Below, piece after piece: positions 38,380-41,852 of a stretch of DNA of 64,000 nt. Numbering within the stretch: position 1 is the first letter of the stretch; each line of letters starts with the position of its first letter. This stretch comes from Aotearoamyces nothofagi (Eukaryota; Ascomycota; Leotiomycetes; Leotiales; Tympanidaceae). The translations under genes were made by a program, and so were the position numbers. The stretch spans positions 310,001 to 374,000 of the forward strand of contig JADDTR010000015.1 in NCBI GenBank assembly GCA_015345905.1. The letters are read 5' to 3'. Under the pieces are notes generated by a model that worked only from the letters and a program-made list of their open reading frames with translations, did not search any database and was not told the DNA's origin.

Positions 38380-41300
38380 ATGGACTCCAGGATGCTTACT
38401 TCTACTAAAGCAGATGAACTACTTGCCATGGAGCTACAACGGCAGCTGAATGCCAATCCACGACGCGCATCAGCTTCACGGCTCTCAGCAAGGACCCTAC
38501 TGCCAATGGAGACACCTGCCCCTAAGAATGCGCGTGAAAAACATGCTGTGCTTCCTCCTACCCCGGAATCTATGGTATTTCCATTTATTATTGTGAGTCA
38601 AAAGGTGTCGGGCGCGTCGATATTTTCTCCATTTAGCTCCCCTCATAATCCTAATGATACTCATTCGGATAAGGTGAAGACAAATAAGAGGCAAGACTCT
38701 ATTTCTAGCCGTAAGATGCTACACATTTATGGAAATGTAAGTACTCCGATCCCCATCAAACTGGAAAGATTCCAACTAACAGGAGTTCTCGAAGCCTTCC
38801 GCACGCGATAGCGGCCTCCCCAAGAGAAAGCGCGCTTTACATCTAACTGATATCACTGTCAACGAAGGTGACAGTAAGAGCAATCCGCCACCGGGTCCTG
38901 AGCTGCTCCAAATGGTTGAGGCAGCCAAGAAGAACCAGGAGTTCGCCATGCGAGTTGAATCATCTGTTGTCCGACGTATTGATGACAAATGGATGGCTCC
39001 CCAGATGTGTGATAAGTATGTACTGGCTCTGTATGTGTCTGGGCATCTATTGACTTCCCCAGCTGTGCGGTTCTTGAAACCAAAAATACGAGATCAGCCT
39101 GTAATCGGAACTTCCCCTGTGCTTCATGTGTAAGCAAAGATAAGACTTGTCATCAAGGCACCTTTATGGCCATCCTAAAACCCTGGAAGAGATGGCCCCA
39201 AAGCGGGACTGGACAAGGTCAACAGTTCAGATCAGATACTTCTACCGAACTGCCTCTGGTTGCACCTCGTCTTAGCCAGAATGAAGACGGATGTTGGCTA
39301 CTCATACCCACTTCTCCGCCAGAGAACCAACACTCAAGGAAACGCAAGATAGCAGAGTTGCTCCATGATCCTCCAGCCACAACTTCATCTCATGTCAGCA
39401 AAGACCCGGCAGATTTCAAAGTTATTCTTGCCACTCATGTCTACCAGGAGTCAAATGGGACGTGGAGCTCGGAGTCTCCAGCTCCACCTTGCCACCGTGG
39501 CAGAAAGCGGAAGAGCGACGACGAAGAATTCATACCAGCTACACGGCAATCCAGCCCAGATACACAAGAAGAGTTTCTTTCAACATCACCGGACTTCTCA
39601 GCTCGCAAACGAAAGCCGACAAAGAAAACTAGTTATGTCAAATACCATCAGTCTGTGCAGGAAGATAAGCCAGAGCCATATGGGCAACCTCCAGTATGGG
39701 CTGAAAAGCGCCAAGCTCTTTGCGAAACACTTCCCTATTATAGAGCCTACATGTCGGGCGCTTATATGCATAATGGCATCGCGCGCGCATTCATGGTAGA
39801 TAAAGAAGTTGGTCCTCGCGACAAGTTTGACGAGGAAATCTTGATTGCTCGGGTGTAAGTATTTGATTACCATTTGTCGGTAATATGCAGCTGACAACTC
39901 TGATAGTGGTGGAGGCAGGAAATTAGACGAGGAGAGTGGACAAATGATCCAGAAGGCTGATCAAGAGAAGAGCGCCTTCGGACTAGGCTTTCAAAGAGCA
40001 AAGGACATGAATGTGGCAGTAGCGATCATTGCTGGTAAGTGTCGGTCCCTAATACTCGAGAAGCATTTCAACTAGAAGAAGGGGCACCAAAATGATATTC
40101 GACAGTTATTGACTACTGCTGGGATGGCCCAAGACTTATGCTGATCATGGTGCAGGCCAAGGAAATAAAATTAGTCCCTCCAAGCTCCCCCACTATTACA
40201 ATATCCTCGACTGGTTTCACGTCACTGATGTCTGGTGCGAGAAGAGTGGCCCATTTAAATGCTGGATGGTTCGTCTTGAGAAAGTCTGTCTTGGTGTCAA
40301 ATCATGGTGGGCTCCAGCTACATCCCCGCTTCCGAATCCTTCTAGAGATCTCAATACTTTCAGAACACGGATAGGCGCCTGCACAGTATGCAATCGCCCT
40401 AGCAAGGAGATCTTCAATGCCGGCTGGGCTTGTCTCGTTACATCTTGCAGAGAGTTTTTCAACTTTGGCAAAGACATTGATGATGTAAGTCTTGACTACA
40501 ACGAAGCATTTATGAATGAGCGAACCAGATTTCTGGGCAACTATCTCGACGAATTAGCGCCGCCGCTTCTTAGCCAGCATGATGTTGAGTTGGTCGATTG
40601 CTCTGGGATCGAGGCCATTTACGCCAAGGGTATTGTTTGCCCAGTTTGCAAGGGATGTAGCCGCCGCATTGAATGGCAGCAGTGGACTTGCGAGACTCCT
40701 GGGTGTACATTCACTCATCGAATACCTCAGAAAGTGGTTAAGATTCAAGATGCTATCGCAAGCAGTATTGGAATGATGACCGAATTCTGGAACGGAAGGT
40801 TCGGCATCCGTTTTGAACAAAAGTCCATGGGCTTGTATAATGTATTCGAATATCTCATTCCAGGACTGGACCAGGATAGTGCGCCTGTTGGGATTATCCG
40901 ACATTTCAAAGCAACGGGCATCATCAATCGCCAACCAGACGGCCCGAATGATCTATTCCATCAAATGCAAAAGGGAGACTTTGGTCTCAAGAGAAACGCT
41001 GCGCGTCAAAAGGGGTCTACTGGGGAAGTCCTCACATCACATTGGGCTGCGAATTGGGGTGCACCCTACAAGTACGGAGTTTCGGTACTATCTAAGGGGT
41101 TCGATGAGGCCCCGCCCGTTCTTATCAAGGCTCTGAAGCGACTTACTTGGGCAGGCGAACAGACCGTCACTGAAAACCTTGAACCGTTCCATCCATTCAA
41201 CGAACTTCTGTCTATTGGGTATTTCGAGCAGACTGCGATTGGCTATCATGATGATGGAGAAAAAGAGCTCGGTCCCACAGTCGCAACTCTATCTTTAGGG

Positions 41301-41852
41301 GCCAGTGCGTCTATGACACTTCGTCCAAAGGCTAAAAGTGGTCTCGGACCAGATTCAAAGAATGTAAAGGGTACTAAAGGCGACGTTTTAAGGATAAATC
41401 TCGATCATGGCGACCTTGTGGTGATGCATGGCCCTGGAATCCAGAAGCTCTACGAGCATGCTGTTACCCCGCACGGAAAGCTGCGATTCGCATTAACTTG
41501 TAGATATGTGCGTCCAGAGCTTATGGCGAACGATGAAGAGAGGCAATACGCCGAAATCAAAGGGAAGCTTCCTGAGGGTCATGAACAGTACAGTTACGAC
41601 GGAGACTTAAATCCCAAGTTATCGGAAGTGATCGATGAGGAAAGTCCAGCAACAGTCACAGCGACCCAAGCAGCCATAAACAGAATCGAGGCGATGCACG
41701 TAGCCGGTGCGTTCCAGAGGGAGCAGCTTGAACAAATGGTCAACTTCTTTGATGGCATTCGAGATATGCTGCGCATTCCAGAGGAAACTCTCAGTCGACC
41801 CGAGCAGGTAGTTGCTTTTCCTGGAGACGTTCCAATGCCAGATCCAAACTAA
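38380..41852 (+). CDS. AlkB-type 2OG-Fe(II) dioxygenase with Zn2Cys6-like and twin C4 zinc motifs
   Basis: Five exons: 38380-38736, 38783-39015, 39063-39854, 39907-40034 and 40156-41852, giving 1068 residues. Residues 1-190 are disordered. The exon 2/3 junction builds a six-cysteine cluster at 195-226 (C-x2-C-x11-C-x5-C-x2-C-x6-C); its second half matches a Zn2Cys6 cluster, its first spacer is longer than the usual x6. Basic Ser/Pro linkers (RKRKSDDEE, ARKRKPTKKT) follow. Two C-x2-C-x13-C-x4-C motifs occur at C579-C601 and C665-C687. The AlkB core has H868-x-D870 (YHDDGEKELGP), TLSLGASASMTLRP, HGDLVVM, distal H938 and R947-x5-R953. All iron and 2-oxoglutarate ligands are present, so activity is plausible. 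Known AlkB enzymes oxidatively demethylate nucleic-acid bases; DNA targeting through the cluster is inference. The last intron (121 nt) has another acceptor at 40105 that breaks the frame. Confidence 0.85.

Follow-up and report, generated by a model that had tools for sequence, protein, structure and literature searches.

An AlkB-family dioxygenase with a long N-terminal extension is encoded within a 64,000-nucleotide stretch of the Aotearoamyces nothofagi genome (hereafter the window), and the locus raises the question of what would hold such an enzyme on nucleic acid and on which kind of substrate it would act. The sequence-only reading of this DNA had proposed an AlkB oxidase steered to chosen sites by a fused Zn2Cys6-like cluster. 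We analysed the spliced protein together with the genome that encodes it (25.5 Mb in 55 contigs, with the window at G000:C15:310001-374000), and we tentatively favour the view that it is a nuclear or chromatin-bound multidomain AlkB Fe(II)/2OG dioxygenase in which an SRA-like domain and zinc motifs would hold nucleic acid while the catalytic core oxidises a methylated base. In our view, the protein is a candidate for an enzyme that erases chemical marks from DNA.

The gene occupies positions 38380-41852 of the forward strand. Five predicted exons (38380-38736, 38783-39015, 39063-39854, 39907-40034 and 40156-41852) splice into an open frame that begins at 38380 and runs for 1068 codons to a single terminal stop ending at 41852, and the four introns between them are all of the GT-AG type, with lengths of 46, 47, 52 and 121 bases. 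For the fourth intron we enumerated GT or GC donors between 39950 and 40119 that were paired with a YAG acceptor 40-260 bases downstream; seven choices keep the frame, and a GTAAGT donor is found only in the intron at 40035-40155. The AlkB gene is real, its model resting on the open frame, and the predicted single five-exon transcript unit, the length of 1068 aa and the residue numbering all agree with what had been read from the sequence at the outset. A search of the genome at E ≤ 1 returned the five exons of the gene itself and one other match (E 0.21), and no paralogue was seen. Along the chain, several basic KRKR-type stretches are followed by a six-cysteine motif, an SRA-like domain, two zinc-type motifs and finally the AlkB core, which is the order of an enzyme with several putative nucleic-acid-binding parts upstream of its catalytic unit. 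Five of the ten open frames scanned among the window neighbours match Pfam families. Two are frames of a Cid1-type poly(A) polymerase, and the other three represent a protein kinase, an EST1-like protein and a WD40 protein; these matched neighbours give no hint as to the function of the AlkB gene.

The catalytic core lies at 41037-41504 on the forward strand. A scan of the whole spliced protein against Pfam, one of the two profile searches that the sequence-only reading had proposed, matched the AlkB-type 2OG-Fe(II) dioxygenase family PF13532 over residues 798-945 with 63.9 bits (cut-off 31.2; E 3e-17), and this was the sole family reported at E ≤ 10. The match spans profile positions 48 to 175 of 194; it begins after the lid region that precedes the core and covers the C-terminal strands weakly. 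A sequence search of the PDB with the last-exon frame (579 aa, the first 15 of which lie outside the spliced protein) gave ALKBH3 as the nearest solved structure (E 3.6e-6), followed more weakly by ALKBH2 (E 0.03), and both searches bear out the AlkB core that had been recognised by eye. In the alignment with ALKBH3, the HxD iron ligands H868 and D870 (HDD, 41247-41255, forward strand) and H938 line up as the iron-binding triad, as do R947 and R953, which sit just past the end of the Pfam match; each of these five residues is found at the position first given for it. The accompanying claim that all 2-oxoglutarate ligands are present was too strong, however: the arginines are there, but I857 and A949 stand opposite ALKBH3 asparagines that we equate with the 2OG contacts N120 and N206 of E. 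coli AlkB. The residue following the HxD motif is G871, in place of an ALKBH3 aspartate that is presumably the contact to the alkylated base. The iron site is complete, but because I857, A949 and G871 replace Asn, Asn and Asp, respectively, the co-substrate and base contacts may differ. A structure predicted for the last exon alone, from its single sequence, had a mean pLDDT of 32.5 and was unusable.

The same genome holds seven AlkB loci in all, represented by eight match rows since one gene is split into the neighbouring pieces L006 and L007. In a comparison with five other AlkB loci (L004 was left out of it), short stretches of the window core were 27 to 33% identical to them. Two of the other genes resemble the window gene in that an AlkB core is joined to added domains, namely a GRF-zinc-ribbon AlkB (L002/L016) and an isochorismatase-AlkB-GST fusion (L001/L015), although their partner domains are different and each shares 26.8% identity with the window protein over one 112-column stretch. 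The C-terminal GRF-type zinc ribbon of the former scored 21.5 bits, below the Pfam cut-off of 25.9. The sequence-only reading had held that AlkB enzymes usually have no dedicated sequence-specific DNA-binding domain; extra zinc modules on an AlkB protein are not unusual, as this gene illustrates. By eye, the first frame of the GRF AlkB gene (L016:2436-3780, on G000:C5) resembles a CUE-type helix bundle, where Pfam reports none. The isochorismatase fusion is a 1007-aa open frame on the minus strand (L015:2472-5492, on G000:C6) with an AlkB core in its middle and a thioredoxin/GST-type C-terminus, and it may correspond to a 933-aa Fusarium ALKBH2 that appears in passages of PMC10826363. Outside this genome, searches with the last exon found no homologue in phages and one Nostoc AlkB in plasmids (E 5e-3; 42% of the query aligned, at 24.9% identity), while none of the 3 viral-contig and 18 genome-contig stretches that matched the search patterns was confirmed as a homologue.

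One explanation for a protein of this kind is alkylation repair. ALKBH3 and ALKBH2, which belong to PF13532 and to group II in passages of PMC3265494, have in common with the window gene the dioxygenase core, the HxD...H residues and the two arginines, and a member of this group would act on 1-methyladenine and 3-methylcytosine damage, with the extra modules only raising its general affinity for DNA. That the closest solved structures are ALKBH3 and, weakly, ALKBH2 is consistent with such a role, and according to the same passages ALKBH11 to ALKBH16, including the fungal-specific classes, cluster with ALKBH2/3. Three of these classes (ALKBH11, 12 and 13) are described there as limited or nearly limited to fungi, and the only fungal members of ALKBH16 as coming from Pezizomycotina; the window gene may be a member of ALKBH11, 12, 13 or 16, whose domain layouts those passages leave undescribed. 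Against repair, G871 replaces the ALKBH3 aspartate after HxD, Pfam does not recognise the lid region ahead of the core, and a more canonical HSDDE-type AlkB (L006) is encoded elsewhere in the genome. The window gene also differs from ALKBH3 and ALKBH2 in I857 and A949 and in carrying SRA-like and cysteine modules on a long N-terminal extension. We hold repair to be the next most likely role after the one we favour, but somewhat unlikely on the whole.

The part of this extension that bears most directly on how the enzyme would be held in place is the segment of residues ~426-548 (39748-40289 on the forward strand, spread over exons 3, 4 and 5), which is likely a divergent homologue of the SRA (SAD/YDG) domain. 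The idea came by eye before it was tested with a profile of nine SRA domains, drawn from human and mouse UHRF1, SUVH4, SUVH9, TagI, one plasmid protein and three viral-contig proteins and holding no sequence from the A. nothofagi genome itself. With this profile the spliced protein scored 14.6 bits (E 8.5e-4) and ranked third among 529 sequences, the other 528 being frames from the window and from genome loci (L005, L009-L013 and L024-L027 left out). The two sequences ranked above it were true SRA frames of the genome, and a third such frame ranked below. Not one of 5000 block shuffles reached 14.6 bits, the top shuffle scoring 10.1 bits. Adding an own-genome SRA to the profile brought the score down to 7.5 bits (E 0.12), a value reached by 3 of 5000 shuffles; a global-profile (glocal) alignment, for which the profile likewise included one own-genome SRA, gave a z of 5.2 over 150 shuffles and of 5.0 against 62 other real windows, none of which scored as high. 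A statistical similarity to SRA is shown by our own profiles. Pfam SAD_SRA (PF02182) was not reported in the protein at E ≤ 10, a whole-genome search at the same threshold returned only two other loci, and a PDB sequence search with residues 396-564 gave no SRA and nothing credible (best E 0.32). Searches of phages, genome contigs and viral contigs with single SRA protein sequences found none; one SRA sequence was found in plasmids, and three were found in viral contigs by alignment query. A Pfam match of the SRA-like segment to eIF-4B (E 0.005) was under the cut-off and was judged to be chance.

The likeness to UHRF1, SUVH4, SUVH9 and TagI includes a GG pair, a Q..DQ motif and a [YF]xVxxxW segment. 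The window domain differs from these proteins in being fused to a dioxygenase, and from UHRF1 also in the residues with which UHRF1 presumably grips a flipped base: Y466, D469, Y478, T479 and N489-R491, which we take to be the flipped-base pocket and the NKR finger, fall on P448, K451, R460, V461 and S471-Q473 in a low-identity alignment, and by that alignment neither pocket nor finger is conserved. Since these residues are not kept, a UHRF1-like mode of reading 5-methylcytosine is unlikely for this domain.

The same loss of DNA-pocket residues would suit an RNA demethylase, in which the SRA-like domain, as a member of the PUA-like superfamily, and the zinc motifs would bind RNA. Relatives in this superfamily, namely YTH, ASCH and EVE, include RNA binders. 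The genome has one MT-A70 methyltransferase locus that would be in keeping with this reading, as would the sub-cut-off eIF-4B match and a weak PDB resemblance between the second four-cysteine motif and the zinc ribbon of ribosomal L37Ae (E 0.14, the best match in the cysteine-region search). Nevertheless, no RNA-binding family was found above the Pfam cut-off, and the profile similarity, from a comparison made with SRA profiles, is to SRA; we consider an RNA demethylase rather unlikely. More improbable still is a catalytically weak or dead dioxygenase that serves as a chromatin-binding scaffold: the nonpolar residues at the two presumed 2OG contacts and a Pfam match that covers the C-terminal strands weakly (ending at 175 of 194) could be taken to point that way, but the HxD...H residues and both arginines are kept, and the same asparagine positions vary in other AlkB genes of the genome, both of them in L001 and the second in L008.

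The cysteine motifs include the one to which a targeting role had first been assigned. The six-cysteine motif spans residues 195-226 (39008-39150 on the forward strand, cut by the intron at 39016-39062), and its cysteines C195, C198, C210, C216, C219 and C226 follow the pattern CX2CX11CX5CX2CX6C. A motif of this general kind arose in 1 of 20,000 shuffles, with a pattern that was written after the motif had been seen, and the motif is not due to chance. Its last four cysteines read CNRNFPCASCVSKDKTC and resemble, in alignment, the second half of Zn2Cys6 clusters. The Cys2-Cys3 spacing is 11, compared with 6 in all of the 30 zinc clusters examined, which were the best-scoring of at least 125 Zn_clus matches in the genome and are hence biased toward canonical ones. 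A profile built from these 30 clusters gave a best domain of -0.9 bits, placed over the last four cysteines, and Zn_clus (PF00172), the second family proposed for searching, was not reported in the protein at E ≤ 10. A canonical Zn2Cys6 cluster was rejected on these three counts, such that the six cysteines described by the sequence-only reading stand while their Zn2Cys6-like character does not. The loop between the second and third cysteines of Zn2Cys6 domains carries the DNA-contacting basic residues, and the motif may be a decayed or remodelled Zn2Cys6 that has changed in just this loop. Steering of the AlkB core to selected DNA sites by a Zn2Cys6 domain is very improbable, the likeness of the last four cysteines being outweighed by the altered spacing of the DNA-contacting loop, the unreported Zn_clus family and the negative score of the own-genome profile.

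The two four-cysteine motifs noted earlier are both present and have identical spacing, CX2CX13CX4C, at residues 579-601 (40380-40448) and 665-687 (40638-40706) of the forward-strand gene. In 20,000 shuffles, two motifs of this form never occurred together, and 3 shuffles contained one or more. No Pfam family matches them above its cut-off; a C1_2 match in the cysteine region, at the second of the two motifs, had an E of 8, under the cut-off, and was judged to be chance. All three cysteine-rich modules are probably zinc-binding.

Taken as a targeting module, the SRA-like domain of residues ~426-548 is therefore a better candidate than the six-cysteine motif. According to the reading we favour, that of a chromatin-bound dioxygenase held by its SRA-like and zinc parts, the centrally placed SRA-like domain, aided by the six-cysteine motif and the two tandem four-cysteine motifs, would anchor the enzyme on nucleic acid, with chromatin DNA as the likeliest anchor. 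The AlkB core at the C-terminus would then oxidise a methyl group on a base, and the oxidised methyl would either be lost as formaldehyde or be kept as an oxidised mark. Of the initial idea of a site-steered AlkB oxidase, the notion that the enzyme has nucleic-acid-binding parts of its own remains reasonable given the combination of AlkB core, cysteine modules and basic stretches, whereas sequence-specific steering by a Zn2Cys6 domain does not stand. The nuclear location, the preference for DNA over RNA, the catalysis itself and the targeting by the SRA-like part are our inferences.

The genome offers a setting in which such an enzyme might act. C5-cytosine methylases (PF00145) are found at four loci (six match rows), one of them with BAH domains, SAD_SRA domains above the cut-off at two loci (three rows), and Tet_JBP as one match below the cut-off (23.8 compared with 34.9 bits). 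Together with the MT-A70 locus, these indicate that a DNA or RNA demethylase could find substrates here. A more specific version of our reading would make the protein a self-contained DNA reader-eraser. An SRA-derived domain with a reshaped pocket would recognise a base in modified or hemimodified form, which need not be 5-methylcytosine, and the AlkB core fused to it would remove or oxidise that base. We regard this version as doubtful; if it were true, it would provide an AlkB-based demethylation route in a fungus whose cytosine methylases occupy four loci and whose TET/JBP match lies below the cut-off. If the SRA-like part is instead a general nucleic-acid clamp, the AlkB enzyme would still be unusually equipped.

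Some 2OG-Fe(II) enzymes of fungi have already been linked, by proposal or by demonstration, to methylated bases in DNA, and the window protein would join them as a further fungal candidate. In passages of PMC13297926, Dmt1 (an AlkB protein of Mucor) and CcTet (of Coprinopsis) are presented as 6mA demethylases and as the first characterised fungal demethylases, and demethylation in Dikarya is called unresolved. Five AlkB genes of 228 to 933 residues are reported from Fusarium graminearum in passages of PMC10826363, none of them described there with a zinc cluster or an SRA domain. No fusion of SRA with AlkB, or of Zn2Cys6 with AlkB, is named among the literature matches listed, which largely exclude subscription journals. 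Fungal-specific AlkB classes are already in print (passages of PMC3265494), and the novelty of the SRA-AlkB layout must be read within this limited literature coverage. For the removal of DNA base methylation in ascomycetes, a protein combining SRA-like and AlkB parts would provide a directly testable candidate.

Two further loci were observed in the course of this survey. About 115 kb from the window gene and on its contig, a 1612-aa open frame (L065, G000:C15:231500-240500) combines a C5-cytosine methylase with DUF7893. The Tet_JBP match (L069:1986-2519, on G000:C23 near the contig end) adjoins similar repeated open frames, and it is perhaps a transposon-borne TET/JBP copy.
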